64,000 nucleotides of DNA, taken from the NCBI RefSeq assembly GCF_007859765.1, contig NZ_SIHJ01000004.1, forward strand, positions 62,001 to 126,000, read 5' to 3'. Shown here one piece after another: positions 17,556 through 49,112 of the stretch (its first letter is position 1; each line of letters opens with the position of its first letter). The notes beneath the pieces are model-generated. The model was not told the DNA's origin and did not search any database. It saw only the letters and a list, made by a program, of their open reading frames with translations. The position numbers and the translations under genes are program-made. This DNA comes from Posidoniimonas corsicana (GTDB lineage Bacteria; Planctomycetota; Planctomycetia; Pirellulales; Lacipirellulaceae).

Positions 17556-17601
17556 AGGGGCAAAGCAACTGTGAAAATTGGAACTAGGAAAGTCGCGCTC
17601 C

Positions 17602-18515: not shown

Positions 18516-18542
18516 GCGGAGATGTGCCGCCGCGATGCCAAT

Positions 18543-18567: not shown

Positions 18568-18619
18568 TGGTTTCTGCTGGATGACTGACCCCCGGCGTGA
18601 ACGCTGGGGCTTGGCTCGA

Positions 18620-18985: not shown

Positions 18986-19166
18986 CTTGTTCGCTCCGTC
19001 GTCAAAAAGGGGGGAGGAGTTGCTCCGTCTTTGTGGCGGGCGGCGCGACGCGCAGGACGCGCGTCGGGAAAGAATGCGGCGCTCGGCCGACCGCCCGGCA
19101 ACACCGCTCATGTTACGCGGCCGGCCGAAGAAGGGGCAAGCCGTGTTTCCGCTTTTTGATTGCGCG

Positions 19167-32041: not shown

Positions 32042-32049
32042 GACGATTC

Positions 32050-33222
32050 ATGAGTGAGAATTTGCGAATGCCGTCAGCAAAACAAATGGCCAAACCGCCT
32101 AGCTGGTTGCCCGTAGCCCTCGGCTCTGCCGGGGGATCGTTTGAAGCAGCGGATCCAGCCCGGCGCCATCCCCCGGCAGAGCCGGGGGCTACGAGTCACA
32201 CGGCTCGCGGGCCGGAACTGCGCTGCGCGTGTTCTTGCCTGCTGGTGGTGTCGCTTGTTTGCGGCGGCGTGCAAGCTCAGGAAACCACAGAGCTTCCCCG
32301 GTGCGACCCTGCCAAGGTGCTCGGCGACGACGCGTGCGCAAAGTGCCATCAGCAGGAGATCAACCAGTGGCGGCTGACGCCCCACTACCGCACCTTCGAC
32401 GTGCTGCACCGCAAGCCGGAGGCCAAGGAGATCGCCGATAAGCTTGGGCTGCGGTCGGTCAAGCGGAACGACACCTGCGTCCGCTGCCACTACACGCAGC
32501 AGGAGCAGCGGCCCGGCCGCGTGCGGGTGGTTGCCGGCGTGAGCTGCGAGTCGTGCCACGGCGCGGCGGCCGACTGGGTGAATCTGCACGCCGACTACGG
32601 CGGTCCTAACGCCACCAAGTCGTCGGAGAGCCCGCAGCACAAGCAGCATCGCCGCGAGGCGAGCGTCGCCGCCGGCATGAACAACCCATCGGACATCTAC
32701 CTGATTGCTCGCCAGTGCCTGGGTTGCCACACCACGCCCGACGAGCAGCTGGTGAACGTCGGCGGGCACAACGCCGGCAGTCAGGGCTTCGAGCTGGTGA
32801 GCTGGTCGCAGGGCATGGTGCGGCACAACTTCCAACGCACCGACGGCCACACCAACGCCCCCAGCAGCGTCGAGCGGCTCCGCGTGATGTACCTGGTGGG
32901 CGCCATGGCCGACCTGGAGATGAGCCTCCGCGCTGCGGCCAAAGCAACCACCGCCTCGACCTTCGGCCAAACCGCCGCCGCCCGTGCCGCGCGGGTCAAG
33001 CAGCGGCTGTGGGAAGCCCAACGCCGACTGGACGACCGGCTGCTCGCCAAGGCGCTCGACGCGGTGTCCGACTTGCAGCTCACGCTCGACAACAGCGAGG
33101 CCATCGTACAAGCGGCCGACCGGGTTGGCCGAGTCGCGCAGGAGTTCTCACGGACCGCCGACGGCGCGACGCTGGGCGCCATCGACCCACTACTGCCGCC
33201 GCCGGGCCAGTACAAGAACTAA
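32050..33222 (+). CDS. Tetrahaem cytochrome c (c554-like)
   Basis: A protein of about 390 residues with four CxxCH haem-binding motifs: CAKCH, CVRCH, CESCH and CLGCH, all in the first two thirds. The start of the mature protein resembles cytochrome c554-type proteins (LGDDACAKCHQQEINQW with a following HY). The C-terminal third is helical and haem-free. The export signal appears to be CLLVVSLVCGGVQA at about residues 62-75, so translation from the ATG at 32050 gives an unusually long N-terminus. That N-terminus is encoded by repeat DNA (32113-32193 and 32211-32238), suggesting insertion of repeats between the original promoter/start and the signal sequence. The true start is therefore uncertain. 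Confidence 0.8.
   Translation: MSENLRMPSAKQMAKPPSWLPVALGSAGGSFEAADPARRHPPAEPGATSHTARGPELRCACSCLLVVSLVCGGVQAQETTELPRCDPAKVLGDDACAKCHQQEINQWRLTPHYRTFDVLHRKPEAKEIADKLGLRSVKRNDTCVRCHYTQQEQRPGRVRVVAGVSCESCHGAAADWVNLHADYGGPNATKSSESPQHKQHRREASVAAGMNNPSDIYLIARQCLGCHTTPDEQLVNVGGHNAGSQGFELVSWSQGMVRHNFQRTDGHTNAPSSVERLRVMYLVGAMADLEMSLRAAAKATTASTFGQTAAARAARVKQRLWEAQRRLDDRLLAKALDAVSDLQLTLDNSEAIVQAADRVGRVAQEFSRTADGATLGAIDPLLPPPGQYKN
32113..32238. repeat. Palindromic repeats inserted at the 5' end of the tetrahaem cytochrome gene
   Basis: An inverted repeat: GTAGCCCTCGGCTCTGCCGG starting at 32113 is complementary to CCGGCAGAGCCGGGGGCTAC ending near 32192. Directly after it (32211-32238) is a decayed family A copy, GCCGGAACTGCGCTGCGC then GTGTTC. 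Both lie in frame inside the coding region upstream of the hydrophobic export core. Confidence 0.7.
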
Positions 33223-33246
33223 CCGACTTACACCCACACCCTTAGT

Positions 33247-33333
33247 TCACCACAGAGGTCACAGAGAGCACGGAGTTATCAACAGCGAAATTCGTAGACT
33301 CTCGCTCTGTGTCCCCCGTGTCCCCTGTGTTTT
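33247..33333. repeat. Family B repeat between redox genes
   Basis: ACCACAGAGGTCACAGAGAG near the left end and CTCTGTGTCCCCCGTGTCC near the right end form an imperfect inverted repeat. It separates the tetrahaem cytochrome gene from the ferredoxin fusion gene and could weaken or modulate read-through in the cluster. Confidence 0.7.
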
Positions 33334-33340
33334 AATCAGC

Positions 33341-35074
33341 TTGGTCACCACGCAAGCCATCACCCGACCGCAACGCTGGGACGAGCCCTTTGACCGCGCC
33401 ATGGACGACCGCGTGGTCGACCGGCTGCTGGGCGTGCCGCCGTTCCGGGCGATGGACCACGCCGCGTTCCCCGACCGGCTGCCGCTGCGGTCGCTGCTGG
33501 CTAACGATACACGGGTGCTCAACTTCAAGCAGGGCGACCTCATCATCCGCGAGGGCGAGTACGGCGACAGCGCCTACCTGATGCTGCACGGCGCCGGCCG
33601 CATCGCCCTCGACGCGCTCGAGGAGGTCGCCGACAACGCGCCGCAGAAGAAGAGCGGCCGCCTGGCCCGCGCCGTCGCGCGGCTGTGGAACGCCCCGCTC
33701 GCCCGCGAGGTCCGCAGCCGCCCCCGCGGCGAACGCTCCGCCCGCCGGCTCGGCGTGCGTGGCTCGGGCGACCACCCCACCTTCTTCCTGCAGGACATCC
33801 CGCGGGTGATCAGCGACTGCTACACCTTGCCGATCCAGCCGGGCGAGGTGTTCGGCGAGCTCGGCGCACTGACCCGCAGCCCGCGGTCCGCGTCGGTGTT
33901 CGCCGAGTCGGACTCGGTGGTGCTGGAGATCCGCTGGCAGGGCCTCCGCGACCTGATGCGGTACTCGCCGGAGATGAAGCGGCACGTCGAACGGGCGTAC
34001 CGCGAGAACAGCCTGCGGGTGCACCTCCGCGAGACGCCGCTGCTCGCGCACCTCAGCGAGGAGCAGCTGGCGGAGGTCGCCAACGCCACGCAGTTCGTAA
34101 CGCACGGCGCCTTCGACTGGCACAGCGAGCTGCTCGCCGAGAAGCCCGGGGACCTGTTCGCCCGCGTCGAACGTGAGCCTGTGGTGGCCGAGGAGGGGAC
34201 CCTGCCCGAGGGCCTGCTGCTGCTGCGTTCGGGCTTCGGGCGGGTGAGCCAGCGCCGCGGGGACGGCCACCAGACCGTTTTGTACATTGGCAAGGGCGCC
34301 GTCTTCGGCGCCTGCGCGTTGGCCCACGGCGTGCGGACCGGCCAGACGCCGACGCTGCCGCTGTCGCTCCGCGCGGTGGGCTACCTGGATGTGCTCCTGA
34401 TCCCCACGCGGGTGTTCCAAGAAGTGATCGCCCCCGCGCTGCCGGCCGAGGAGCTCGACGCGCTCGTCAAGCAGTACGAGCGTCAGCACTGCGCGGCCGA
34501 GACCGGTCTGCCGGCCCGCACGCTCGACTTCCTGGTCGACCGCCGGCTAGTCAATGGCGAGCAGACCATGGTCATCGACCTGGACCGCTGCACCCGCTGC
34601 GACGACTGCGTCCGCGCGTGCGCCGCCACGCACGACGGCAACCCCCGCTTCGTGCGGCAGGGTCCGATCCACGACCACTTCCAGTACGCCAACGCGTGCA
34701 TGCACTGCGTCGACCCGGTCTGTATGATCGGCTGCCCGACCGGCGCCATCCACCGCGACCTGGAGTCGGGCGTCGTAAAGATCAACGACCCTACCTGCAT
34801 CGGCTGCTCGACCTGCGCCAACAGCTGCCCGTACCACAACATCCGCATGGTCGAGGCCCGCACGCCCGCTGGCGCGGTCCTGTCGGACGACGCCGGGCTG
34901 CCGATCATCAAGGCGACCAAGTGCGACCTCTGCGGCGACCAACCGACCGGCCCCGCGTGCCAGCACGCCTGCCCCCACGACGCGCTCACGCGGGTGAGCG
35001 TCGCGGCCGGCGCGCCGCTGGCGGAGTTCCTCGGCGCCGACACGCCTGCTGCTCCCTCCGGCGGGACAGCCTGA
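33341..35074 (+). CDS. Cyclic-nucleotide-binding domains fused to a four-cluster ferredoxin
   Basis: A protein of about 577 residues, no signal peptide. Two cyclic-nucleotide-binding-like folds come first: residues 60-210 (FKQGDLIIREGEYGDSAYLM, EVFGELGALTRSPRSASV; split by a basic insertion) and about 275-370 (PEGLLLLRSG, GAVFGACALA). The C-terminal 190 residues hold 16 cysteines in four 4Fe-4S patterns: CTRCDDCVRAC, CMHCVDPVCMIGC, CIGCSTCANSC and CDLCGDQPTGPACQHAC, as in the electron-transfer subunits NrfC/HybA/DmsB. A cytosolic redox relay gated by a nucleotide or redox signal is inferred. The TTG at 33341 is proposed; the longer open frame lies in repeat DNA and the previous gene. The next gene begins 5 bp after the stop. 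Confidence 0.82.
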   Translation: MVTTQAITRPQRWDEPFDRAMDDRVVDRLLGVPPFRAMDHAAFPDRLPLRSLLANDTRVLNFKQGDLIIREGEYGDSAYLMLHGAGRIALDALEEVADNAPQKKSGRLARAVARLWNAPLAREVRSRPRGERSARRLGVRGSGDHPTFFLQDIPRVISDCYTLPIQPGEVFGELGALTRSPRSASVFAESDSVVLEIRWQGLRDLMRYSPEMKRHVERAYRENSLRVHLRETPLLAHLSEEQLAEVANATQFVTHGAFDWHSELLAEKPGDLFARVEREPVVAEEGTLPEGLLLLRSGFGRVSQRRGDGHQTVLYIGKGAVFGACALAHGVRTGQTPTLPLSLRAVGYLDVLLIPTRVFQEVIAPALPAEELDALVKQYERQHCAAETGLPARTLDFLVDRRLVNGEQTMVIDLDRCTRCDDCVRACAATHDGNPRFVRQGPIHDHFQYANACMHCVDPVCMIGCPTGAIHRDLESGVVKINDPTCIGCSTCANSCPYHNIRMVEARTPAGAVLSDDAGLPIIKATKCDLCGDQPTGPACQHACPHDALTRVSVAAGAPLAEFLGADTPAAPSGGTA

Positions 35075-35079
35075 CCGAC

Positions 35080-35904
35080 ATGAACGCCTTCGCCCGCCGC
35101 CGACTCCGCTACAGCGCCGCCGCGCTGACGCTGGTCGCTGCGCTGTGGGCGTGGCTGTGGTGGGTGGACGCCTCGCTCGGGGCGACCGCGTACCAAAGCG
35201 GCTACGTGCTGTACGGCATGGTGGTATTCCTGGCCGCGTACAACCTCCGCAAGAAGCTGCCCGGCCTGCCGCTGGGCAGCAGTCGCGTGTGGCTGCAGCT
35301 GCACCTGTACGTGGGCGTCACGAGCGTGTTCTTGCTCGGCACGCACATCAGTTGGCGGCAGCCCAACGGCTACTTCGAGACAGCCCTCTTCGCCCTCTAC
35401 GCCGCCACGGTCGGCAGCGGCGTGTGGGGCCTGTACCTGACCCGCACCATCCCCAAGCAACTCGCCCGCACGTCGGAGCAGTTCGTGTGGGAGCGGATCC
35501 CCCGCCTGCGGAGCGACCTGCTGCGGCGGTCCCGCGCGGCGGTGCTGCAGTGCGTGTCGCAGACCGGCGTCACGACACTGGCCGAGTTCTATTCCGACCG
35601 CGTTGACAACTACCTCGCCGCGCCCCGCGGCGCCGCGTACTTCGTGCGTCCCTCGAGCGCCGTGCGGCGGCGCGTGATGGCCGAGCTGACCGACCTGCGG
35701 CGGTTCCTCACCGAGGCCGAGGAGGCCGCCAGCGAGAAGCTGTTCGCCATCATCCGCAAAAAGGACGACCTCGACTTCCACCAGGCGCGGCAGGGACTGC
35801 TCAAGGGTTGGCTGTTCCTGCACATCGCGCTCACGTACACGCTGATCGCCTTCGCCACGCTGCACGGTGTGGTCGCGCTCGCCATGCGGGGGGGACCGCG
35901 GTGA
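35080..35904 (+). CDS. Integral membrane protein of the redox cluster
   Basis: A protein of about 274 residues with four predicted membrane segments: about residues 9-28, 42-58, 70-90 (with an LHLYVG and LGTHISW pattern supplying His residues), 100-115, and one at about 250-270 (FLHIALTYTLIAFATLHGV, again with His on one face). The conserved His pairs within membrane helices suggest binding of b-type haem or a quinone-interacting subunit, as in cytochrome b-like anchors. A charged soluble part of about 120 residues lies between helices 4 and 5. It is sandwiched between a ferredoxin gene (5 bp) and a decahaem gene (4-base overlap), so it is probably the membrane link between them. Confidence 0.7.
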   Translation: MNAFARRRLRYSAAALTLVAALWAWLWWVDASLGATAYQSGYVLYGMVVFLAAYNLRKKLPGLPLGSSRVWLQLHLYVGVTSVFLLGTHISWRQPNGYFETALFALYAATVGSGVWGLYLTRTIPKQLARTSEQFVWERIPRLRSDLLRRSRAAVLQCVSQTGVTTLAEFYSDRVDNYLAAPRGAAYFVRPSSAVRRRVMAELTDLRRFLTEAEEAASEKLFAIIRKKDDLDFHQARQGLLKGWLFLHIALTYTLIAFATLHGVVALAMRGGPR

Positions 35905-37970: not shown

Positions 37971-38052
37971 GTAGGTCGGTACGTGTTCCAACGCAATTTC
38001 TGCGTTTGGGATTTGACGTGTCGGAACGGCGCTGTCGCTTGTTCCGGCCTAC
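37971..38052. repeat. Family A repeat, overlaps the stop of the membrane protein gene
   Basis: Left end GTAGGTCGGTACGTGTTCC and right end TCGCTTGTTCCGGCCTAC form an imperfect palindrome of 82 bp with a T-rich centre. The terminal G of the minus-strand TAG stop (38052-38054) is the first base of GTAGGCC. It lies between the convergent ends of the redox cluster and the tandem membrane protein genes, where a bidirectional terminator would be useful. Confidence 0.8.
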
Positions 38053-39842
38053 TATTGTTCACTATTTTCATTTTCATCCGGTTCGACGGGTACAAGCGGC
38101 GGTTCGTTGTAGGTTGGGTAGAGCCCGTCGAGGGTTGCATCTCCCGATTGACTAGGAACGTATAAGTTATCGGTGGGGGAAACCCCACCGTCGTCTATTT
38201 GATCAATCCAGACGCTGTAGACCGAGTACTCGTCGCCGTTCTTGCGGTACCGGACTGGCGTTAGATCGGCCGCGAACGGATCAAGGGGGACGAACGGTAG
38301 GATCTCAGGTGTGAGGTCCGAGAGTAGACTCGGGAACTCACCGTGCTTGCTGCGGTAGATCCCGAGGGCAATCTCAACCTGAAGCAGTCGGAGGCCAACT
38401 AGGTAGTGCGCGACTAGATACGAATACCCTATCTCAGTTGAGGTTCCTCCACCACTACTCCAATCACATAGGATCTGTGTTAGGTGTCCTTCCCAGCCTA
38501 GGGCGTGCTGCGTCCATACCAGCTCTCGGGCAAGGAAGGCAGCGTCCCCCTCGTAATCGGAGTCGAGCCCTCTCAGATGAGCCAGCAGGCGCAACGCTTC
38601 CCCTTTCGGGTAGTTTGGGTGACACCGATAGATGGCGCTAATGGCGATGCCGCCTATTGAGGCGCCCACTTGGCTATCAACGATCAAGCCGTTTTTCATG
38701 GTGCTGTTGGCCAAATCGAGCATGTCGGAGTAGATCTTGATTGCCCGGCTTCCGTCGTTCTCGCGCTCCGCAAGGTAGCCCAGCGACCGCAGACCCCGCG
38801 AGAGGGAACGCACCTTGCGACGGAAGCTGGGATCGAGGTCTGCTTGGGTGTATGTAAGTGACCGGCAGCAACCTCTCTGAATCGATTCACGCAACGCATC
38901 GTAGGCGGGTTGCACTTCGGCCGCGGCTGACTCTAGTTGCGCCAGGGTGATGGACCCATCGTATAACGCATCGTCGAACGTGGGAGTGTCTACTATTGGC
39001 GAGTTGGGCCAACGCGCAAGCACCCCATTCAATCGTGCGGCACCTTGTCGCTGCTCCTGCGTGGCTGGGAGAATAGGATCGGGGTGCATGAGCTTAGTTA
39101 GCACTAGCAGAGGAAGAACCGCCAACGCCGCTATCGCAGTCGCGGCCGACATGACGCACAAACGCGGTCGATTTAGTAGGCGCCGAGATAGCCTTGAGGC
39201 GCCAAAGGCTGAAAGTGTCGCCAAGACGCCTATGGCGGCCCAAGTGGGCTGCACGCGCATTCTGTTGGCTATCATTGCGGCGCGACTGACCATGTCGCTG
39301 AGCGTTCTAGTGGCCCAGTAAATCGCTTCCAACAGGGCTGGGAAGATTGGTTCGTAAAGGACGAGTGGAACCGAGGCCGCTGCGACAAGCAGTATCGCTG
39401 CAGCCAATCGCCGCAACAGCTTGGAGTCTCTTGCTCCCGCCCAGAGTCCGGCCAACATCCAAATTGCGGCACTGATTCCAACAATCGCAGCGTTGCTTAG
39501 ACGAGCCAGGTCGAGCGCCGACAACCGCACTGCCGCCGCCGTCAGTACAGCCAGCGGAACCACCGCCAGCAATGCGTCCTGCAACGCAAACCGTGTCCCG
39601 TTTCCCTCAGCAGACTCACGCCGCCGCCAACGCCACGTCTGGACGCCGAACGCGACCACCAGCCCCTGCAGCACGAAGGCGACGAACATTTCGTACGCCG
39701 GGATCAAGAGCGGCAGCGAGGCGATGCACAAAAACAGTAGTGTCCGCACAAACCAATGTCTGCGGGAGGTAGCAGCCCAGGCGGCAAGCAGACCAACCGA
39801 GGTCAGGGTAGTAAAGAGTAGTAATGCAGGTGTGAGGATCAT
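38052..39842 (-). CDS. Membrane protein with pseudopilin-like C-terminal motif, paralogue 1
   Basis: A 596-residue protein. Its N-terminal 260 residues form about six to seven hydrophobic helices starting with LLLFTTLTSVGLLAAWAATS and LLIPAYEMFVAFV. A large soluble helical domain with several Cys follows. Near the end lies a pattern common to GspG-like major pseudopilins and related planctomycete proteins: LLQVEIALGIYRSKHGEFP, then LDPFAADLTPVRYRKNGD and YSVYSVW. The neighbour at 39839 has the same architecture and clear sequence similarity, so these are tandem duplicates. The ATG overlaps the neighbour's stop (ATGA). GC is lower than in flanking genes. Function is unknown. Confidence 0.75.
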   Translation of the reverse strand: MILTPALLLFTTLTSVGLLAAWAATSRRHWFVRTLLFLCIASLPLLIPAYEMFVAFVLQGLVVAFGVQTWRWRRRESAEGNGTRFALQDALLAVVPLAVLTAAAVRLSALDLARLSNAAIVGISAAIWMLAGLWAGARDSKLLRRLAAAILLVAAASVPLVLYEPIFPALLEAIYWATRTLSDMVSRAAMIANRMRVQPTWAAIGVLATLSAFGASRLSRRLLNRPRLCVMSAATAIAALAVLPLLVLTKLMHPDPILPATQEQRQGAARLNGVLARWPNSPIVDTPTFDDALYDGSITLAQLESAAAEVQPAYDALRESIQRGCCRSLTYTQADLDPSFRRKVRSLSRGLRSLGYLAERENDGSRAIKIYSDMLDLANSTMKNGLIVDSQVGASIGGIAISAIYRCHPNYPKGEALRLLAHLRGLDSDYEGDAAFLARELVWTQHALGWEGHLTQILCDWSSGGGTSTEIGYSYLVAHYLVGLRLLQVEIALGIYRSKHGEFPSLLSDLTPEILPFVPLDPFAADLTPVRYRKNGDEYSVYSVWIDQIDDGGVSPTDNLYVPSQSGDATLDGLYPTYNEPPLVPVEPDENENSEQ

Positions 39843-41626
39843 TCGGAAGAGTTCGGATCATCCTGGCGGTAAGATTGGGCTCCGTACAGCGCTTCCAAGC
39901 TCAAATCGCCGCGCAGCTCAGGATTCCACGAGACCGCGCCGTTCGCCTCGCGGGGAGGGGCGCCTTGGTCGTCTTGGCCGTCGGCCCACACGCTGTAGAG
40001 TTGGTAGCTGTTGGCATCGCGGTGGTAGCGGAACGGCCCGCCATCGGGCGCGAACGGGTCGGTCGGGAGGGTTTCGAGGATGCCGGGAGTAAGCGCCTTG
40101 AGCTCGCTGGGCCATTCGCCGTGCTGATCGTGGTAGCTCAGCAGCGCGTACTGGATCTGCAGCAGACGAAGCGAGGCAAGGAACTGCTGGTACGACAGAC
40201 GCGAGGACTCGTACGCGGGGCGTTGCAGCTCCGAGTTGATGCCGAGGACGTTGAGTAGTCGGGTCGTCCAGCCACCGACCCGCTGTGACCAGACTTGCTC
40301 CCTCAGCGTAATGTTGTGCAGATCATCAGCACGCTGTTCTGCGGCTTTGATCGCCTCGATTAGGTTCGGATACGCATCCGGCGGGGTTGCGTCACGCACT
40401 GAGTACAAACCTTCGGCGCCTTGGCCTCCGCACGCCGCGGCGACCAGGGCGTCTACAAGTAGCCCACCCTGACTCAGGCTGGCCCCGTACTGTGCGAGAG
40501 CTGCAAATCGAAACGCATCAGCATCAGTGCCCGACTCATCACCGGGAGTGTGAGATCTTGCGCTAGCGTAGAGGGATCGGGCCAGCGAGCGATAGCCATT
40601 TAACTGCTCCAGGTGCTGCTCAATATTGGAGTTGGTGGGATCTTCTTGGAACGACAACTCGCGCTGCACGCCCTTGGCAAGCCCCGTTTCAACGATTCGG
40701 TAAAGCTGCTCCTGCCGCTCTACCATCGCGTCGATCTCTTCTTGTGAGGCGATGCCAGACTCCGCGTCGGACGCGGCCGCGTCAAGCGGGGCGTTCAGCA
40801 ACGCTACGGCACGGTTATAGTCTTCGATTCCGTTGGGATTCGGCGCCGATTGCTGAGGGATGGCAGGTGGGTTGGCCAACAGGAAGAGCGCCATGACCGG
40901 CGCGGCGATCACAACGACGCCAAGCATCGCGTAGACGCTGATGATTGCTACGCGCATCGGTCGTTCACCCTGCCACGGCGGCGCCGCCCAGGCGAGGCAC
41001 CCCGCCAGCAGCACGCACGCGACCGCGACGCCCGGCCAGTGGAGACTCGCGACCAAGTCCTGACGGTCCCACGGCAGCAGCGACTCGGCGGGCCAGCCAA
41101 TCTGATAGGCCAGGGAGGTGAGCAATTGTCCCCAACCCGACGCCACCAGGACTGCAGCCACGCCGGCAAACGCGGCCAGCACGCTGCGTGCCCAACGATT
41201 CCAGGGAACCGCGGCGGCCAGCCACAGCCCCACCAAAATCACCAACCCGCTGAAACAACCAGAGAGCAGCATGCCGAACCACCGGTCGGCGCCGAGCGGC
41301 GGCATCTGCACAACTACCGCACACACCGCCGCGACCGGGATCACCGCCAGCAGCAGGTCGCGCGTGGCGAATTGCGACGGACGCCGCTCGCCCGCGGCGC
41401 GGCGCCTCAGCCACTTCCAAACCAGAACGCCAGCCACGACCGTTCCCATGAGCGCCATCGCCGCGATTGACAGCTCATACGCAGGGATGAGCAGCGGCAG
41501 CGCGGCGACCCCCAGGCAGAGCATCGCCCGCACGAACCAGTGCCAACGGGACGTGGCGGCCCACGCGGCGATCAATCCGACGGTGGTGACGGTGGTGAGG
41601 AGCAGCAGCAGTGGAGGGAGGAGCAT
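39839..41626 (-). CDS. Membrane protein with pseudopilin-like C-terminal motif, paralogue 2
   Basis: A 595-residue paralogue of the neighbouring protein: LLLLTTVTTVGLIAAWAATS at the N-terminus, then LLIPAYELSIAAMAL, six to seven membrane helices to about residue 260, a helical soluble domain, and the end LLQIQYALLSYHDQHGEWP with TDPFAPDGGPFRYHRD and YQLYSVW. The soluble domain is the more diverged part, which suggests different ligands or partners. The C-terminal motif corresponds to the end of the long helix and beta sheet of pseudopilins, but the type IV prepilin cleavage motif is absent at the N-terminus. Its stop overlaps the start of paralogue 1, so they are translated together. Confidence 0.75.
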   Translation of the reverse strand: MLLPPLLLLLTTVTTVGLIAAWAATSRWHWFVRAMLCLGVAALPLLIPAYELSIAAMALMGTVVAGVLVWKWLRRRAAGERRPSQFATRDLLLAVIPVAAVCAVVVQMPPLGADRWFGMLLSGCFSGLVILVGLWLAAAVPWNRWARSVLAAFAGVAAVLVASGWGQLLTSLAYQIGWPAESLLPWDRQDLVASLHWPGVAVACVLLAGCLAWAAPPWQGERPMRVAIISVYAMLGVVVIAAPVMALFLLANPPAIPQQSAPNPNGIEDYNRAVALLNAPLDAAASDAESGIASQEEIDAMVERQEQLYRIVETGLAKGVQRELSFQEDPTNSNIEQHLEQLNGYRSLARSLYASARSHTPGDESGTDADAFRFAALAQYGASLSQGGLLVDALVAAACGGQGAEGLYSVRDATPPDAYPNLIEAIKAAEQRADDLHNITLREQVWSQRVGGWTTRLLNVLGINSELQRPAYESSRLSYQQFLASLRLLQIQYALLSYHDQHGEWPSELKALTPGILETLPTDPFAPDGGPFRYHRDANSYQLYSVWADGQDDQGAPPREANGAVSWNPELRGDLSLEALYGAQSYRQDDPNSSE

Positions 41627-41841
41627 CCGGCCGATTGTAGATGATGCGGAGGTAGGGCGTCGGTCAGCGCACGCCGGAACATGGCAGCCGGTTGGCTTGG
41701 CGGTTGTTCGCTCGCGCGGCTCGAGGATTGGACGAAATCTCTCACGGCCTGCACATCCTGTGTCTCTCCCTCCTACGGGGGAGAGAGCGGCACGCTCCGC
41801 TGTGCGGATTGCCTTGCCAAGAAGAGGCTAAGTAGGGACGC

Positions 41842-43455
41842 TTAGAATTTCCACCGCAGTTCGCCGCGTACGCCTGAGATGTCGCGCGAGTTCTCCAGCC
41901 AGCCGTGCATCGCGTCGCAGCGGATAAGGTACGCGTTGGTGATCGGCAGCTGCCAGCGGAGGCCCAGGCCGTACTGCGGGCCGGGTGCGTTGCGTGTTGC
42001 TTTGTCGCCGAAGGTGTGCAGCGCGGCGGCCTCGACGATCAGCTGCTGGTCGAAGTTGGGCGCGCCCAGCAGGTCCAGGCCGATCGACCCGCCCACCGTG
42101 TTGTTGCCGGTCGCGTCGAGCGTGGGGTAGCCGGTGAGCGCGTCGCTCTGGAACAGGATGCCCGTGTTGAACAGCACGCCGCCGGCCGCGGCCGCGCGGG
42201 CGGCCGGCTGGGGACTGCCGATGCCGGCGAACAGGTTGACGTAGGGGATAACGTAGTACGGGTTCTCGGTGATCAGCGAGTTCTCCATCAGCAGCAGTAC
42301 GCCGTCGGCGGTGCGCTGGTCGCGGGGGCCGCTCTGGCCCGTGTTGATGATGGCCCGCACGGAGTTGGAAACCCGCCCGAGGTACCGCCGGGTGTAGGAG
42401 AGCCCGAGGTTGTGGTAGTCGCGTCCGACGTCCTCGTCGTCCGCCGCGTACGCGTAGCCGACCTCGAAGTACCCGCCGCGGGCCTCGATGAATGTGGTGG
42501 CGCCGAACAGCGAGCCGGTGTGCAGCGAGTTGGCGAACGCGTCGGTCGACACCTGGTCGAACGCGGCGAAGAAGGTGATGTCGTAGTTCGACCAGTCGAG
42601 CCACGGGTTGTTGCGGGCCGGCAGCGTGACCGCGGCGCCCCAGAACGCGTCGAGCATCCAGGTGCCGTTCTGGAACAGCATCGGGATCAGCCCGACCGTT
42701 ACCGGCATATCAAACGGCGCGTAGGTGTGTTCCCAGCCGCCCAGCATCTGGCCGAGGTCGCCCTCGAAGAACAGCGTGTCGGTGTCGGCGCTCCAGAAGT
42801 CGATCTCATTCTTGAAGTCGCCGTTCTCGATGCGGGTGAAGTTGTTGCCGTCCTGCAGGGGGCCGCTGAACGCGTGGAACCGCTCGGTCGACGTGATCCA
42901 GTAGTCGAGCTCCAGGTTGAGCCGCGCGGCGAGCACGTCCGCCTGCCGGTTGACGTCCTGGTTCACGGCGGCGCCGATGCGGTAGTCGCCGTACACGTAG
43001 AACTTCTGCTGAACCGGGTTGGTGGGCCCGCACCAGGTTTCCGTCTTGGGGATCGGCCCAAGGTCATAGAAAGGCAGCCCCCACTCCACCAGCGGCCGCT
43101 GCACCGGCACGTTGTACCGCCCGGCGTACACGTCGAGGGCGGCGCACGGGTCGTACTCGTCGCACCAGTAGGCGGGGTCCGGGCTGAAGTCGCACCCGCC
43201 CGGCAGCGTGGGGCAGGAGCGGCGGTCAACGGCGCGCTCCTCCACCGGGGGCAGGCAGCGGACCGACGCGGGCGGGGGCGGCAGAAAACCGTATCGGCCG
43301 ACGCTCGGCTTGAAGTACGACTGCGCCTCGGTTGTCGGGCAGGTCGGCGCGCACTGGAAGTTCGCCCCCGGCGCCACGGCGCACGCCGGTTGGGCCGCGA
43401 CCGCAAGGATCGCGAGCGAGCAGACGATTCGGCGGGTGGCGGGGCTGGGGTTCAA
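41842..43455 (-). CDS. Outer-membrane beta-barrel protein next to pentahaem cytochrome
   Basis: A protein of about 537 residues with a signal peptide (RRIVCSLAILAVAAQPACA). A Cys/Pro-rich spacer follows (about residues 30-140, with patterns such as CDEYDPCAALDVYAG). The last 400 residues alternate hydrophobic and polar residues with frequent aromatic girdles (YVYGDYRIGAAV, ITFFAAFDQV, YFEVGYAYAADDEDVG), and the protein ends in aromatic Phe (LRWKF), all typical of an outer-membrane barrel. No ATG exists in the N-terminal region; a TTG at 43455 gives the cleanest signal peptide, while an earlier TTG (43485) is in repeat DNA. The adjacent cytochrome gene suggests a shared role in transport or extracellular electron transfer. 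Confidence 0.75.
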   Translation of the reverse strand: MNPSPATRRIVCSLAILAVAAQPACAVAPGANFQCAPTCPTTEAQSYFKPSVGRYGFLPPPPASVRCLPPVEERAVDRRSCPTLPGGCDFSPDPAYWCDEYDPCAALDVYAGRYNVPVQRPLVEWGLPFYDLGPIPKTETWCGPTNPVQQKFYVYGDYRIGAAVNQDVNRQADVLAARLNLELDYWITSTERFHAFSGPLQDGNNFTRIENGDFKNEIDFWSADTDTLFFEGDLGQMLGGWEHTYAPFDMPVTVGLIPMLFQNGTWMLDAFWGAAVTLPARNNPWLDWSNYDITFFAAFDQVSTDAFANSLHTGSLFGATTFIEARGGYFEVGYAYAADDEDVGRDYHNLGLSYTRRYLGRVSNSVRAIINTGQSGPRDQRTADGVLLLMENSLITENPYYVIPYVNLFAGIGSPQPAARAAAAGGVLFNTGILFQSDALTGYPTLDATGNNTVGGSIGLDLLGAPNFDQQLIVEAAALHTFGDKATRNAPGPQYGLGLRWQLPITNAYLIRCDAMHGWLENSRDISGVRGELRWKF

Positions 43456-43577
43456 ACTGAGTCGCGCGGGTTCCCCTCCGCTCAAGGGGGAGGGGGAAGT
43501 GTTCTGTTAGTTGGCGTGTGCTTCTATCGGTGGCTTCTTGCTCTAGACTCTGGATTCTTCCAACTTCCAACCGCCAA

Positions 43578-46500
43578 CTACTCCACCCAAAACTCCACCG
43601 ACCGTTCGTGCATGTTGAGGATCCCCTCGTTCATCATGCGGACCATCTCGTCGGTGGCGTCGCAGAATCGCATGAACCAGATCGGCTCGATGCGGTTCCG
43701 CAGCCGGAACGATAGGCGGTACTTGCCGGGCGCCTGGATCAGCTCTTTGGGGATCTTGTAGTGCACCCGCTTCGTGCCCAGCGGCGCAATCGAGCGGCTC
43801 TCCATCCGGATGAACGGCGGGTGGTTGGTGGTGGTGATCGGGATGGCGCCCGGGCGGAGGAACGGCAGCTGGTCGATGTCGACGTTGACCGGCAGCGGCA
43901 TCTCGCGGTCGGTCCCCGTGGCGCCGGTGATCAGGAACATGGTCTGCAGGTTGAACAGCTGGTGGTCGAACGGCGCCCTGCCGAGCTGCACGTCCCGCGA
44001 GTGGATATCGCAGAGGTCGCCGTCGGAGTCGGTGTAGCCCGACTCCCACAGCCGGCAGCCGTTGGGGCCGATCAGCACCACGTTGGCCCACAGCTGCGGC
44101 TGGGCGCCGAGCGACGCGGTCAGCACGTTGTGCCCCTCGTTCAGGTTCGTGACGTCGTAGAACAGCCGCACCGGCGCCCCGCGGCGGGGCTTGTGCTGGA
44201 AGAACGGGCCGGCCACGTGCATGTGGTCGGACATGATCGCGCGGCGTTTCTCGTTCTTCTTCTCGAGCGCCTCGAGGTTGTCGTCGATGACCTCGCGGGC
44301 GTCGTAGCGGTCGTCGGCCTCCTGCCACTCCTGCGGGAACTGGGCGACCAGCTTGCCGTCGTCGAGCGCCTCCTCAAACTCGTCAGTGCCCCAGCCCGCC
44401 CGCCAGTTGAACCGCAGCCACTCCTGCATGCTCCACCGCTTGGCGTCCTTGTTGTGGGGGAACACGCCCGGGTGGCTGATCGAGTAGTTGGGCCCGTAGA
44501 ACATGTGGTTGGCGTGCTTGCGCTGCTTGTTGACGCTCTTGCCGCCCACCTCGGCGATGCTGCAGATCTCGTAGCCGGACGCCTCGCCCGGCTTGAGGCC
44601 CATGTGGCAGTCCTGGCACGTGACGCCCTTCTTGCACGCGGGCGACTGGCGGTACTGCTCCCACACCACCTCGAGCTTGATGCCCGGGTGCACCGCCACC
44701 TGGTGGCAGCTGGTGCAGAACTCGGCCTTGCTGAGCTGGTCGAAGTACCGGCCTTCAAGATGGATCGGCTGGCCAGCGCCCTTCTGGTCGGGCGAGGTCT
44801 TGACCTTGAAGTGCTCCGGCCGAGACAACGCCTCGGCGACCCCGCCGCCGCCGATGCCGCCGTAGATGGGCGAGTAGATGTCGCCCGGCACGATCCGCCG
44901 CTCGCCGTTGGCCTTGGTGTACCGCTCGTTGATGCGGTGGCAGGCGATGCAGGTCACCCCCTCGCGGGCGACCTCCGGCATCTCCCACAGCGGCGTCGCG
45001 CGGTTCTCGCCCAGGCTGGTCGCGACCGGCGAGTGGCAGCGGTAGCAGAAGTAGCCCACCGTGCCCTGGCTGAGGTTGGTGATCTTCTGCTCGAACTTCT
45101 GGAACATCGGCGACACGAACGCGTACGCGTGGCTCGACACCCGCCACTCGTCGTACAGCTTCTTGTGGCACTCGCCGCACTGCTGGGCCGAGGGGTAGCA
45201 GTTCTTGGCGAATAAGTCGCGGTGCGCCTCGATGGAGCTGAGCTGGCTGTCGGTCGATGGCTTCCCCTGCTGTGAGGGGACCGAGTGCGGCGCGCCGTGG
45301 GTGTGCGCATCGGCTGCTGGCATTGAACGGTTCGGCTGGGCGGCCGGGGCGCCAAAGATCGGCTCCGGCGTGATCGGGCGGCGGGTCTCAACCGGCGTGG
45401 GCGCCGCAATCGATTCTGGACCGGCGTTCACGTGCGGCGGCTCGGCCGCGCGCTCGACCTCTGGCTGAGCTGGCGGCGTCGGCGGCTGCTCGTACCGCGG
45501 CTCTGGCTCTTCTGGCGTTGGCGCCACGCCTGGCGCCGAGAACAACGGCGCGGTCGGTGTTGCAGGAGTTGAGGGCGCCGGATTGTCGGCCGGCAGCGGC
45601 ACAACCACCGGCGCCGCATCGGATGGCGAGCCGGGCTCGCTCTCTAACCCGAGCGACGGTCCTTCCACCACGTTGGGGGTCCACGGCTGCTGCTCGTCAG
45701 CGCTGTTCGCCGCCGGCGCCTGCGGTTGGCGAAGCTCGGGCGCCGTCAGGTTGGGCGCGTCGTTGGGTTCCTCGACCCGATCTTCGTGGGCCGGTTCCGC
45801 GTGCTTGATGATCGGGGCTGGGCTCATCACTTCCGGGGCAGCCGCGGGTTCGGCGGGCACGTCGATCGGGTCGGGCCCGTCGAACGAGGGGCCGGCGTCG
45901 ACAGGATCGGGCTCGACGGCGGGCGCAGGGGCCGGTATCGGCAGCGGGCGGACCGGCGCGGGGGCGGTCGGCTCGGTTGACTGCTCAGGCGGCGCCGGCG
46001 CGGCGGGCGGCTCTTCCGCGGGTTCCCTGGCCGGGGCCGCGGGCGCCGGTTCGCGATCGCTCGACGTGTCCTCGGGCACAAACCAAGAGTCGGGGTCCAC
46101 CAGCCATTCGCCTGTGCGTTGCGCCACCCGCAGGGGCGGACCGGGCGCCGGCGTCGGGCGCATCGCCACGCGGATCGGCGCGGGGGTTGGTTGGGGCTTC
46201 GGCGGGGCGGGCGTCGGCCGCGTGGGCGGCGGCTCCGTCAGGCCTTCGCGGTCGAACAGCTCCAGCGCGTGCGGGCAGGCGGCGCCGATCATCGCCCGCA
46301 GTTCCGGGTCTGGCGGCAGCCGCCGGACCTGCGGGTCCTCTGCGGCCGCCGGAGCGGCCAGCTGGGCGGCGAGCTCTGCTGCGGGACGAACATCGTTGCT
46401 CGTCGGCGGCGGGGGCGTGACGGCCACGGAGTCCTGCGCGGCCGGCTGCGCCAGATCACGCGTGGCCAGCTGCACCGCCCGAACGCCCACCAGCACAGCG

Positions 46501-46613
46501 GCGGCCACGATCAGGCCGACCAGCACGGGCGGCGACGAGTTGCGACGCGGTGGCGCCAACGGGCTTCCTTGCCTGGGTCCTGGACACGGCCCCCACGCTG
46601 CGGGGGCCTGCAT
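43578..46613 (-). CDS. Pentahaem cytochrome c with long proline-rich arm
   Basis: A protein of about 1011 residues. A membrane helix at about 28-50 (VLVGLIVAAAVLVGV) is followed by a Pro/Ala/Glu-rich, low-complexity stretch of about 400 residues (for example PPTRPTPAPPKPQPTPAP), then a cytochrome c554-like domain with five CxxCH motifs (CGECH, CYRCH, CIACH, CTSCH, CQDCH) at about residues 476-670. The last 330 residues are haem-free and mostly beta (VRLFYDVTNLNEGHNV). The arm resembles the periplasm-spanning part of TonB. The protein could carry haems from the inner membrane to the outer-membrane barrel encoded next door. ATG at 46613 is used; an in-frame GTG at 46631 is possible. Confidence 0.82.
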   Translation of the reverse strand: MQAPAAWGPCPGPRQGSPLAPPRRNSSPPVLVGLIVAAAVLVGVRAVQLATRDLAQPAAQDSVAVTPPPPTSNDVRPAAELAAQLAAPAAAEDPQVRRLPPDPELRAMIGAACPHALELFDREGLTEPPPTRPTPAPPKPQPTPAPIRVAMRPTPAPGPPLRVAQRTGEWLVDPDSWFVPEDTSSDREPAPAAPAREPAEEPPAAPAPPEQSTEPTAPAPVRPLPIPAPAPAVEPDPVDAGPSFDGPDPIDVPAEPAAAPEVMSPAPIIKHAEPAHEDRVEEPNDAPNLTAPELRQPQAPAANSADEQQPWTPNVVEGPSLGLESEPGSPSDAAPVVVPLPADNPAPSTPATPTAPLFSAPGVAPTPEEPEPRYEQPPTPPAQPEVERAAEPPHVNAGPESIAAPTPVETRRPITPEPIFGAPAAQPNRSMPAADAHTHGAPHSVPSQQGKPSTDSQLSSIEAHRDLFAKNCYPSAQQCGECHKKLYDEWRVSSHAYAFVSPMFQKFEQKITNLSQGTVGYFCYRCHSPVATSLGENRATPLWEMPEVAREGVTCIACHRINERYTKANGERRIVPGDIYSPIYGGIGGGGVAEALSRPEHFKVKTSPDQKGAGQPIHLEGRYFDQLSKAEFCTSCHQVAVHPGIKLEVVWEQYRQSPACKKGVTCQDCHMGLKPGEASGYEICSIAEVGGKSVNKQRKHANHMFYGPNYSISHPGVFPHNKDAKRWSMQEWLRFNWRAGWGTDEFEEALDDGKLVAQFPQEWQEADDRYDAREVIDDNLEALEKKNEKRRAIMSDHMHVAGPFFQHKPRRGAPVRLFYDVTNLNEGHNVLTASLGAQPQLWANVVLIGPNGCRLWESGYTDSDGDLCDIHSRDVQLGRAPFDHQLFNLQTMFLITGATGTDREMPLPVNVDIDQLPFLRPGAIPITTTNHPPFIRMESRSIAPLGTKRVHYKIPKELIQAPGKYRLSFRLRNRIEPIWFMRFCDATDEMVRMMNEGILNMHERSVEFWVE

Positions 46614-46746
46614 TCCTTGCAATGCTATCACTCACCGTGAGCAGCGCATCCAGAAGAACAGATCGAGTGGCGGCCAGCCCCAAGCCCGGCATTTCCCCTC
46701 ACCGCCGCACAGCAGGCAGGACCGGCAAGGTTTGCCGGGGTTCCGG
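46614..46746. other. Upstream region of the pentahaem gene
   Basis: First part of a 307-bp gap between the pentahaem cytochrome and a PEP-CTERM gene. It should hold the promoter of the cytochrome; AAGGA lies directly before ATG 46613 but is too close to be an ideal ribosome site. The remainder of the gap holds a heptamer tandem repeat and a terminator, listed separately. Confidence 0.4.
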
Positions 46747-46821
46747 TTGGCTGTTGGCTGTTGGCTGTTGGCTGTTGGCTGATGGCTGATGGCTGATGGC
46801 TGATGGCTGATGGCTGATGGC
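46747..46821. repeat. Heptanucleotide tandem repeat TTGGCTG / ATGGCTG
   Basis: Five units of TTGGCTG are followed by five units of ATGGCTG and a partial sixth, with no interruptions. A seven-base unit is not a multiple of three and the locus is intergenic. The number of units is likely to vary among strains by slipped-strand replication. Confidence 0.95.
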
Positions 46822-46840
46822 GACCAGTGTCAGCGGGTAA

Positions 46841-46876
46841 CCAAAAGAAAAAGAGCCCCTGGAAAACCAGGGGCTC
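46841..46876 (-). terminator. Intrinsic terminator of the first PEP-CTERM gene
   Basis: On the minus strand the stem GAGCCCCTGG / CCAGGGGCTC with loop TTTT is followed by a T-rich tract (CTTTTTCTTTTGG). It lies about 45 bp after the stop of the gene at 46921. Almost the same hairpin follows the paralogous gene at 47652. Confidence 0.9.
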
Positions 46877-46920
46877 GTTGTGGGTATCAAGCTGTTTGAT
46901 CCGGAGGCCAAACGTTTCGC

Positions 46921-47406
46921 TCAGCGACGACGGCGGAAGCCGAGGACGCCGGCGATGGCCAGGCCGGCCAGGCCAGCGGTGGCCGGCTCGGGGAAGGTGA
47001 CTATTAAGTCCGCAACCTGAGTGGGGTTGCCGAAACCGGCACTCCACAGCAAGGTCAGATCCTGCGACAAGAACTCCTGGGTTAATCCCACGCCGATGTT
47101 AGCCAAGCGAACATCGGGAAGGGTGCTGCCGGTGCCCGCGTTGATCACTACCGACATACGGGTATCGGTGTCGACGGGAAACAGCCCGCCGGGCACAGTC
47201 CGGTCCGAGAAGATGCCGCTCGCCGACTGCGCGTCAATGAGTCCAATACCAATCCCTTCGCCATCGGCCCAGAACTCGCCGCTATACATGTTGTAGTAAT
47301 AGGATGGGACGCCGGGCGTGGCATTCTCATAGTGAACCATCACCGCCGCATCCGCCTGCGAGAGCAGTATCAGTGCAGCGACGATTGCGTAGAGGAGTTT
47401 CCACAT
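46921..47406 (-). CDS. PEP-CTERM exported protein, duplicate 1
   Basis: A 161-residue protein with a signal peptide (residues 1-20, ALILLSQADA) and a C-terminal PEP-CTERM anchor: FPEPATAGLAGLAIAGVLG followed by FRRRR. Such proteins are cleaved and anchored by an exosortase. The mature part shares long stretches with the neighbouring gene (for example DAQSASGIFSDRTVPGGLFP and NAGTGSTLPDVRLANIG), so the two are recent duplicates. A good Shine-Dalgarno (AAGGAG, 7 bases before ATG) is visible, unlike most genes here. The mature protein is predicted beta-rich, of unknown function. Confidence 0.85.
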   Translation of the reverse strand: MWKLLYAIVAALILLSQADAAVMVHYENATPGVPSYYYNMYSGEFWADGEGIGIGLIDAQSASGIFSDRTVPGGLFPVDTDTRMSVVINAGTGSTLPDVRLANIGVGLTQEFLSQDLTLLWSAGFGNPTQVADLIVTFPEPATAGLAGLAIAGVLGFRRRR

Positions 47407-47574
47407 CGTTCTGCTCCTTAGCTAGGCTGGTTGCCGCCATCGGATCGAGGACCGGACTTATAGGAGGGCAGACTGCCCAGGGACCTGCTCAGGATCAACG
47501 CACCTAAGAGTATCAGCCATCGATGCGTCGGTTCCAACAAGTTCGGCTTCCAGGCCTCGAACTAGGGGACTGCG

Positions 47575-47607
47575 AAAAAAAAAGAGCCCCTGGTAAACCA
47601 GGGGCTC
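47575..47607 (-). terminator. Intrinsic terminator of the second PEP-CTERM gene
   Basis: On the minus strand the stem GAGCCCCTGG / CCAGGGGCTC with loop TTTA is followed by a run of nine T residues. It differs from the first terminator by only a few bases and keeps the same flanking sequence, so the duplicated segment includes the terminator. Confidence 0.92.
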
Positions 47608-47651
47608 TTTGTGGGTATCAAGCTGTTTGACCTGACGGTCAAACGTATCGC

Positions 47652-48161
47652 TTAGCGACGACGGCGGAAGCCGAGGACGCCGGCGATGGCCAGGCCGGCC
47701 AAGCCAGCGGTGGCCGGCTCGGGAACACCCTGCCAGACCAAGCCGGTCTCAACATTGGGGTTGCCGAAACCAGCACTCCACAGGAGGGTCAGGTCCTGAG
47801 CCAAGAAATCCGGGGTTAGCCCCATGCCGATGTTGGCCAGGCGAACGTCCGGGAGGGTGCTGCCGGTGCCGGCGTTGATCACGACCGACATACGGGACTC
47901 GGTGTCAACCGGGAACAGGCCGCCAGGAACGCTGCGGTCGGAGAACAGGCCGCTAGCGGACTGAGCGTCCACCAAGCCGATCCCAGTCCCCTCACCATCC
48001 AGCCAGAACTCGCCGGTGATGGCATCGTAGTAGTACGACGGGAGGCCGTCATTCGCCTCGTCGGCCGAACCCGGGGGGTTGTCGACCACAACCATGGTGG
48101 CGGCATTGGCGAAAGACGTAAGAGCGAACAACGCGGCGAAAGCTAGTGCAGTATTCTTCAT
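47652..48161 (-). CDS. PEP-CTERM exported protein, duplicate 2
   Basis: A protein of about 169 residues: signal peptide (MKNTALAFAALFALTSFANA), a mature beta-rich part highly similar to that of the gene at 46921 (DGLPSYYYDAITGEFWLDGE, RMSVVINAGTGSTLPDV), and the C-terminal VPEPATAGLAGLAIAGVLG then FRRRR. The last 25 codons are nearly identical in both copies. The ATG at 48159-48161 is chosen because it begins a clean signal peptide and is preceded by a ribosome site (AAGGAT); a longer open frame back to 48296 encodes no sensible signal. Confidence 0.85.
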   Translation of the reverse strand: MKNTALAFAALFALTSFANAATMVVVDNPPGSADEANDGLPSYYYDAITGEFWLDGEGTGIGLVDAQSASGLFSDRSVPGGLFPVDTESRMSVVINAGTGSTLPDVRLANIGMGLTPDFLAQDLTLLWSAGFGNPNVETGLVWQGVPEPATAGLAGLAIAGVLGFRRRR

Positions 48162-48341
48162 TGCGAATTTATCCTTGATTCGGACTTTGTAGTGTTGATA
48201 CATCAACTCGGGTGACAGCGATCGAGATGTGTTCAGCAGGAGCTGTCGTTCCATTTGCTGTCGTGGTGCTTCAGCATTAGCCCTCTCAAAGTCCACAAAC
48301 GCTAAATGTGCAAATGCTATACGAAGGCGGTCTGTGCTAAC

Positions 48342-49112
48342 TTAGCGGCGACGGCGGACTGCAGCCGAGCAGGCAAGCAGGCCAGCCAGGGCCAGCGAGG
48401 CGGGCTCCGGAGCCGAAGCGCCACCAGCAGTGGCGGCGGGCGCCGAGGTGCCGAAGTTAGGCGACAGGACCAGGATGTCGTCGAAGTTCACCAGACCATC
48501 GCCAGTGAAGTCAGCGCCGGCCCAGCCGTTGGTGACGGCTCCGCCGAAGTTCGGCGAAACGATCAGCACGTCGTCGAAGTTGACGTTGCCGTCGAGGTTG
48601 GCGTCGCCACCGTAGGCGGTGCGGGACTCGCTGGCCGAAACCGAGTTGTTGGTTCCCAGCTGAGCAATGATGCCACTCACACCAACCGAGGTGGTAAGCG
48701 AGCCGGTGGTCGAGGGACCAGCAGTGGTGAAGGTGCCGAGCAGGTAGGTGCCGGCGGCGACATCGTCGCTACCAAGCGCGGCGGTGGCTTCGTTGTTGGC
48801 GGGGCTGGCCTGGAAGCCAACAACGCCGTCGCCATCGCGGGTAACCCACCCCAAGGTGGTGCCGCTCGGGTTCTCAAAGTCAAACACAGTCGTGTTGCCG
48901 ATGACGCCGGCCAGCAGGTCCGCGTCGGAGAAGGTCGCGTCCAACTCAGTCGCAACCGACCCTTCGGCGTCAGTCACAACGTTGACTTCCCAAACCCAGT
49001 CGCCGTTGGCGTCAAGGCCGGTGTTGGTGGCGGTAACAATCGGCTGGGCCAGCACAGGCGAGGCCGTCAGAGCGGCCATGGCCGCGACACAGAGGATGTT
49101 CTTCAAGGACAT
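48342..49112 (-). CDS. Exported protein with dockerin-like repeats and PEP-CTERM
   Basis: A protein of about 256 residues. Signal peptide MSLKNILCVAAMAALTASP is followed by a beta-rich domain of about 150 residues, then two calcium-binding dockerin/EF-hand-like repeats, GDANLDGNVNFDDVLIVSP and GADFTGDGLVNFDDILVLSP, with Asp at positions 1, 3, 5 and 12 of each loop. It ends with APEPASLALAGLLACSAAV and four Arg, the PEP-CTERM anchor. In planctomycetes such dockerin-like repeats are widespread in surface proteins without cellulosomes. A ribosome site (GGAG, 9 bases before ATG) supports the start at 49112. Ligand unknown. Confidence 0.85.
   Translation of the reverse strand: MSLKNILCVAAMAALTASPVLAQPIVTATNTGLDANGDWVWEVNVVTDAEGSVATELDATFSDADLLAGVIGNTTVFDFENPSGTTLGWVTRDGDGVVGFQASPANNEATAALGSDDVAAGTYLLGTFTTAGPSTTGSLTTSVGVSGIIAQLGTNNSVSASESRTAYGGDANLDGNVNFDDVLIVSPNFGGAVTNGWAGADFTGDGLVNFDDILVLSPNFGTSAPAATAGGASAPEPASLALAGLLACSAAVRRRR

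Follow-up and report, generated by a model that had tools for sequence, protein, structure and literature searches.

A pentahaem cytochrome and an outer-membrane barrel of Posidoniimonas corsicana: a conserved gene pair in a probable PCC4-type electron chain

We analysed a 64,000-nucleotide stretch of the genome of the planctomycete Posidoniimonas corsicana (contig NZ_SIHJ01000004.1, positions 62,001 to 126,000; hereafter the window), in which the gene of a pentahaem cytochrome (PHC) with a long proline-rich arm is directly followed by that of an outer-membrane barrel. The two genes are inherited as a conserved pair and, within the family of P. corsicana, the pair shares genomes with an inner-membrane protein (IMP) and a decahaem cytochrome, both of which are also encoded in the window. 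The pair is likely to be the outer-membrane end of an electron chain of the class labelled PCC4; in the window's family a tether would hold the pentahaem domain, probably at the inner membrane. The gene set is a member of this described class (PCC4 subgroup II). As far as seen, its new parts are the tether, a Cys-Pro in the arm and the small size of the barrel.

Cytochrome and barrel form a conserved gene pair

Fifty-nine whole genomes were searched: 36 from the family (P. corsicana itself, a congener and 34 others) and 23 from the order. By coordinates, the barrel adjoins the cytochrome on the same strand in all 24 family genomes that carry the cytochrome. Six of six divergent pairs, found in five genomes (a second copy in G032, one in G040, two in G043, and one each in G049 and G056), are also adjacent; G039 and G010 gave weak core matches only (E 2.3e-12 in G010) and no barrel match. 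A scan of genome contigs confirmed at least 501 relatives, the best 80 of which are our named loci. Thirteen of these carry proteobacterial names (alpha- and gammaproteobacteria), one belongs to an unassigned bacterium (L089) and the rest are from planctomycetes. Culturable relatives with the pair include Bythopirellula polymerisocia, Adhaeretor mobilis and Lacipirellula limnantheis. At 76 of the 80 loci the barrel gene follows directly downstream of the cytochrome gene, in the same orientation; at the remaining four loci (L088, L109, L117 and L141) the contig stops within about 700 bases of the cytochrome gene, or inside it. Since homologues of both genes adjoin in dozens of genomes, the pairing is not due to chance. 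An initial annotation of the window had pointed to the neighbouring barrel gene, and the homologue search bears it out as a conserved neighbour.

The IMP and the decahaem cytochrome follow the same distribution within the family. Both are carried by 23 of the 24 genomes with cytochrome and barrel, the exception (G025) being an assembly that is 58% complete. The other 12 of the 36 family genomes, some of them fragmented or incomplete assemblies, gave no match to any of the four components save the weak core match in G010. Outside the family, 18 pair-carrying genomes chosen from the 80 named loci were searched with the IMP and all gave a match; 16 matches were strong, two of them (L139 and L116) being rows of the query alignment, and two were weak (L145 and L148).

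Sister pairs were observed at four loci (L151, L152, L153 and L154), where a six-CxxCH cytochrome sits beside a divergent barrel and the IMP is not nearby. The extra haem motif of these cytochromes is N-terminal and, by eye, resembles a planctomycete-type cytochrome domain.

The coordinates of the pair and of the other genes discussed are collected in Table 1. The initial annotation had described a protein of 1011 residues with a single N-terminal membrane helix, an arm of about 400 Pro/Ala/Glu-rich residues, five CxxCH motifs at about residues 476-670 and a beta-rich tail, next to a gene whose product has a signal peptide and a barrel-like end. This description holds. The open reading frame (ORF), helix and arm are as stated; the motifs start at residues 485, 529, 561, 639 and 672 of a 1017-residue frame, that is 479-666 counted from the ATG; the AlphaFold2 model of the core agrees with a beta-rich tail; and the neighbour has a signal-like helix (residues 20-38) and is modelled by AlphaFold2 as a barrel. 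The gene coordinates given there, 43455-46613, were right at the upper end, which is the ATG, and wrong at the lower, where the barrel gene may have its start (TTG at 43455); no strand was given. The cytochrome, on the minus strand, stops at 43578. Upstream its frame continues as far as a GTG at 46631 (ORF 43578-46631, 1017 residues). On the plus strand at the annotated coordinates the frames are interrupted by stops; further long plus-strand ORFs overlap the region, and both homology and haem motifs are those of the minus strand.

Companion genes and the PCC4 description

The companion genes occupy 30773-37913 of the plus strand and converge on the pair. The IMP carries the motifs WLQLH-X13-H, SGVWG and WLFLH-X13-H, and all four His are invariant in five aligned proteins. 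Just ahead of its gene ends the ORF with the Fer4_11 (PF13247) match (E 1.8e-8). In the decahaem cytochrome, eight Cys before the membrane helix are invariant in five of five aligned proteins. Since this eight-Cys domain precedes the sole predicted helix it may be cytosolic, and it may bind metal or Fe-S clusters wired directly to the periplasmic haems.

Table 1. Positions of the cytochrome-barrel pair, its parts and the companion genes in the window
Feature	Position	Strand	Basis and remarks
Pentahaem cytochrome (PHC)	43578..46613	-	1011 aa from ATG; ORF and five CxxCH
N-terminal hydrophobic helix	46473..46529	-	residues 35-53 of 1017-aa frame; Kyte-Doolittle peak 2.40
Proline-rich arm, 413 residues	45234..46472	-	residues 54-466 (1017-aa numbering); composition and length comparison
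Cys119-Pro120 in arm	46272..46277	-	identical in 24/24 aligned family members
Five-haem region	44604..45179	-	CGECH, CYRCH, CIACH, CTSCH, CQDCH
C-terminal beta-rich part of core	43581..44222	-	AlphaFold2 model, core residues 338-551
Outer-membrane barrel partner	41842..43485	-	547-aa frame, start TTG 43485 or 43455; directly downstream of cytochrome
FAD/NAD(P)/2Fe-2S reductase, 422 aa	30773..32041	+	Pfam NAD_binding_1, Fer2, FAD_binding_6; hydrophobic helix residues 8-26
Tetrahaem cytochrome, c554 type	32050..33222	+	four CxxCH; Cytochrome_C554 E 1.4e-17; start inferred
Cyclic-nucleotide-binding and 4Fe-4S protein (PF13247)	33335..35074	+	Pfam; start approximate
Inner-membrane protein (IMP), probable dihaem cytochrome b	35080..35904	+	two WX3HX13H and SGVWG
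Decahaem cytochrome, N-terminal eight-Cys domain before one membrane helix	35901..37913	+	ten CxxCH

The initial annotation knew of no described system with this layout, a statement that must give way to He et al. 2017 (PMC5566968). The available parts of that paper describe PCC4 as a porin with three periplasmic multihaem cytochromes of 4, 5 and 10 haems and an inner-membrane protein with two WX3HX13H motifs, SGXXG and five transmembrane helices; in subgroup II, which includes planctomycetes, a PF13247 Fe-S gene lies upstream of the gene for the inner-membrane protein. In the window the gene of the pentahaem periplasmic cytochrome is likewise clustered with that of the porin, the CxxCH counts are the same, the IMP has the two WX3HX13H motifs and SGXXG, and the PF13247 gene stands in the same order before the IMP gene. 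A crude, high-threshold hydropathy scan of the window's IMP flags one helix, where the PCC4 description gives five. The arm, the OprD-like barrel and the eight-Cys domain of the decahaem cytochrome are not mentioned in the parts of PMC5566968 that we could consult.

The label PCC4 was introduced tentatively in 2017. In the accessible literature one later paper, PMC13264449, uses the name together with a porin and a cytochrome. Planctomycete porin-cytochrome genes are mentioned in PMC10732223; PMC5615132 concerns another porin-multihaem cluster, of Verrucomicrobia, which has eight haems and is not the window's set, and the corresponding text of PMC10654088 does not describe the window's gene set.

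Companion-type genes also recur when the neighbours of the 80 loci are clustered: they were found, among other clusters, in 13 to 16 loci of both phyla. Judged from the annotated locus L139, the recurrent genes encode a cyclic-nucleotide-binding and 4Fe-4S protein, a membrane protein of about 270 residues, a multihaem cytochrome of about 650-700 residues, a c554-type cytochrome and a NAD/FAD/2Fe-2S reductase, which is also the set of the window.

In the chain we propose, cytosolic NAD(P)H (or quinones) would form one end and a substrate at the outer membrane or beyond it the other, with electrons exchanged between the two. The FAD/2Fe-2S reductase and the cyclic-nucleotide-binding and 4Fe-4S protein would handle them on the cytosolic side. 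At the inner membrane they would be carried by the dihaem b protein and by the decahaem cytochrome, including its Cys domain, and in the periplasm by the tetrahaem and pentahaem cytochromes. The pentahaem domain would act next to the barrel, whose width is probably too small for a sheath. Helix and disordered Pro-rich tether probably keep this domain at the inner membrane in the window's family and would let it swing from inner to outer partners and back. Other planctomycetes also have the arm, and the helix of some members may be cleaved; in Proteobacteria, where export of the same domain would rely on an ordinary signal peptide, it is probably soluble.

Several points weigh against this assignment. 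The set matches PCC4 by published description (haem counts, motifs and Pfam families) rather than by comparison with named PCC4 genomes, and PMC5566968, in its available parts, reports no experiment on PCC4. The IMP gene lies about 29 kb from the pair in G013, 194 kb away in G011 and on another contig in G023, and the decahaem gene can also be distant. The six divergent pairs have no IMP or decahaem match nearby, which leaves room for other partners of the pair. Two order-level genomes that lack the pair, G048 and G057, give weak IMP-like matches (E 4.3e-8 and 5.1e-10). The status of the helix as an anchor rests on a crude motif count (see below), in which 20 of the 52 members outside the family and the Proteobacteria show a cleavage-like motif.

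Two further observations concern the companion genes. In the protein encoded at 33335-35074, cyclic-nucleotide-binding and 4Fe-4S domains are fused in one chain, and second-messenger control of electron entry is thereby possible. The gammaproteobacterial locus L145 holds a variant set (13262-21057) with a Pyr_redox/cyclic-nucleotide-binding/4Fe-4S fusion, a b561-like protein, an FHA domain with c7 haems and two more c554-type cytochromes; of this set, only a protein that begins like the L145 fusion was seen at L148, also gammaproteobacterial.

Core fold, barrel size and the substrate-channel alternative

The AlphaFold2 model of the cytochrome core has a mean predicted local distance difference test (pLDDT) score of 84. 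Plain Foldseek with this model returned nothing with an E value of 0.001 or lower, and its 50 listed matches did not include 5ze8, the pentahaem cytochrome c552 of Thermochromatium tepidum. A second structural comparison, made after the first, did match 5ze8 (Z 20.2, root-mean-square deviation (rmsd) 3.7, 346 residues), with the runner-up structures far below at Z under 10. 5ze8 is also the closest solved relative by sequence (residues 481-683, E 1.2e-7). The two proteins have five haems and the overall fold in common; identity in the structural alignment is only 18%. According to the available parts of PMC11976967, ExtKL and the pentahaem cytochromes of cable bacteria (the PHC group) are related to the T. 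tepidum c552 fold; the extKL genes of Geobacter share a cluster with the gene of the porin ExtI, an arrangement like that of the window pair, and the cable-bacterial PHCs have no porin gene nearby. The window core matches the ExtKL model weakly (24 bits, cut-off 250), and these parts of the paper mention no arm for ExtKL or the cable-bacterial PHCs.

The core is 50-69% identical to that of the window cytochrome in 79 of the 80 loci, across phyla (L117 was left out of this alignment). In P. corsicana itself, a search with the core found the gene and only one distant C554-type protein (E 8e-5). The CxxCH residues are invariant in an 80-row core alignment except for His 177 (79/80), as are five His outside these motifs (35, 158, 243, 368 and 471 of the core).

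At E 1 the barrel has no match in Pfam or NCBIfam. Its AlphaFold2 model (mean pLDDT 81) forms a beta barrel after about 130 low-confidence residues; the best matches are OprD/Occ porins at Z about 27 (OccK7: Z 26.9, 313 residues, rmsd 2.8), with MOMP and AlgE channels as further matches and no MtrB-type barrel among the 50 matches listed. The barrels of OprD/Occ, MOMP and AlgE have 18 strands, whereas that of MtrB has 26. Because the window barrel is modelled as an OprD-sized porin, the MtrCAB-type arrangement invoked in the initial annotation, with the cytochrome sheathed as in MtrAB, is unlikely; a pentahaem domain would hardly fit inside so narrow a barrel. The window shares with MtrAB, MtoAB and PioAB a porin gene beside that of a periplasmic multihaem cytochrome. 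In the MtrAB type, however, the partner of the porin is a decahaem protein, while the partner of the window barrel has five haem motifs and the decahaem cytochrome is encoded elsewhere in the cluster. A barrel as narrow as modelled would set the window system apart from MtrAB. Pairing across phyla, the joint presence or absence of four components in one family and the small barrel are testable constraints on mechanism, and suggest that this is not another MtrAB.

Such a barrel also lends weight to a different reading, in which it is an OprD-type substrate channel and the pentahaem cytochrome a periplasmic enzyme that oxidises or reduces a small compound admitted through it, with no electron leaving the cell. 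We regard this as quite possible, if somewhat short of an even chance. The structures matched by the barrel model are channels, the core is as strongly conserved as would be expected of an enzyme, and no outer-surface cytochrome gene was seen in the window cluster, although no search with a localisation program was made. The cytochrome itself fits the substrate-channel reading less well. The Pfam models that it matches above cut-off are those of electron-carrier cytochromes (Cytochrome_C554, E 6.7e-9; Cytochrome_C7; and the NapC/NirT N-terminal model, in the haem region), the nitrite reductase model Cytochrom_C552 falls just under its cut-off (22.2 against 24.1 bits), and no NCBIfam model reaches its own. 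The five invariant non-CxxCH His could ligate all five haems, so that no open site would be left; two of them, His 158 and His 471, are no longer invariant once four divergent relatives are aligned. We favour the electron chain; transfer across the envelope is made likely by the neighbouring genes.

The arm and the N-terminal helix

All five haem motifs are packed into about 200 residues C-terminal of the arm, and none lies within its 413 residues. The arm is 24% Pro, 17% Ala and 9% Glu, with 14 EP and two KP dipeptides. That it is a coding artefact was rejected: a third-position G+C of 0.90 over the whole frame and arms of similar composition in relatives speak for a real arm. An origin from tandem repeats was likewise rejected: the sole array in 41000-48000, with a 7-bp unit, lies at 46748-46821, upstream of the cytochrome gene and outside it.

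Arm length was counted as the residues between the strongest 19-residue hydropathy peak and the core, starts and cleavage sites being unmapped; two loci with a cut 5′ end (L071 and L097) were excluded. So measured, arms run to 55-504 residues, with a median of 198, in all 65 members outside the Proteobacteria whose 5′ end is complete, and to 0-36 residues in all 13 proteobacterial members, which have the same core. The barrel is visible beside 12 of these 13; at the thirteenth, L141, the contig stops too early. Within the genus the arm is 40% identical, compared with 91% for the core. In an alignment of the 24 family members, 20-residue arm blocks (window residues 61-460) have mean conservation of 0.06-0.42, the boundary block 0.47 and the core 0.78. 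The lack of haems, the fast evolution, the variable length and the retention of the pair without an arm in Proteobacteria argue that the arm is not the path of the electrons. To judge from these sequences, a tether would be its simplest role.

In 22 of the 24 family members (L045 and L054 were dropped, as the helix finder chose the wrong stretch) we looked for a cleavage-like motif, [AV]xA[ADEQSTGV], after the helix; this is a heuristic and not SignalP. The motif is present in 5 of the 22, in 11 of 13 proteobacterial members and in the 20 of 52 others mentioned above. On these counts the helix is likely to be an uncleaved inner-membrane anchor in the window's family, and not in general.

One element of the arm, Cys119-Pro120, is shared by the whole aligned family. 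Several Pro columns of the arm are also conserved at 0.92-0.96, and an aligner can yield such columns in Pro-rich sequence; the conserved Cys is less easily explained in this way, because there are only 31 Cys in 8138 arm residues. Fifteen named loci group with the family, most of them from the same genomes as the 24 aligned members: Cys-Pro is found in 13, L078 has the Cys without the Pro and L071 is cut. Many Pirellulaceae arms carry, by eye, a different single-Cys element (LPPxC[TI]-like), and 19 of 52 Pirellulaceae-type arms are free of Cys. We considered and rejected a disulfide between the arm Cys and an N-terminal Cys of the barrel, since the presence of the two is unassociated over 48 Pirellulaceae-type pairs (Fisher p 0.52). 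Nor did 16 family barrels show a conserved Cys column, the fullest having Cys in 8 of 16.

The arm could instead be a near-neutral, low-complexity expansion of exported planctomycete proteins without a role in electron transfer. We find this possible but somewhat doubtful. It is a serious rival because the N-terminal stretch of the barrel is likewise longer, and somewhat richer in Pro, in planctomycetes: its median length is 247 residues at 15 family loci, 326 at 48 others and 137 at 12 proteobacterial loci (starts approximate), with Pro contents of 10-20%, 8-18% and 5-15%, respectively. The rapid divergence of the arm within the genus is also as expected of neutral sequence. Yet not one of the 65 complete non-proteobacterial members has fewer than 55 arm residues, and neutral drift sits poorly with a Cys-Pro identical in 24 of 24 family arms.

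The tether reading can be carried further, to a proposal that we consider unlikely as it stands. On this view planctomycetes would have put a pentahaem carrier that was soluble in the periplasm on a tether and so made it a swinging shuttle. An anchor in the inner membrane, a Cys-Pro element for docking and a linker both long and flexible would let one haem domain serve the inner-membrane decahaem cytochrome as well as the OprD-like barrel, even where the periplasm is wide or changes in width. With its range of lengths, the planctomycete arm is a natural series for asking whether electrons cross the periplasm by fixed wire, by diffusion or by tethered shuttle. A limited literature search for proline-rich linkers on periplasmic multihaem cytochromes found no description of such an arm.

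The initial annotation had the arm carry the haems to the barrel as a periplasm-spanning conduit, by analogy with TonB, in which an N-terminal membrane helix is followed by a Pro-rich arm as in the window cytochrome; this is very improbable, for although the arm and a probable anchor are real in the window and its family, and 413 residues could in principle reach across the periplasm, every haem motif comes after the arm, its blocks are poorly conserved beside the core, and the cytochrome has few KP dipeptides and no TonB C-terminal domain (Pfam, NCBIfam). That annotation had named an arm of variable length as evidence against its idea, and this is in part what we found (55-504 residues, at most 36 in Proteobacteria). 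What stands of it is the conserved cytochrome-barrel unit with its neighbours and a likely transfer across the envelope; the arm as the haem-carrying core of the mechanism does not.

Two minus-strand genes without a significant family match (38052-41626) separate the halves of the cluster. By eye, their products are two adjacent membrane proteins of about 595 residues that look like paralogues. Upstream of the cytochrome gene, also on the minus strand (46921-49238), are genes for small exported proteins with PEP-CTERM-like ends, the first recognised by Pfam and the other two by eye.

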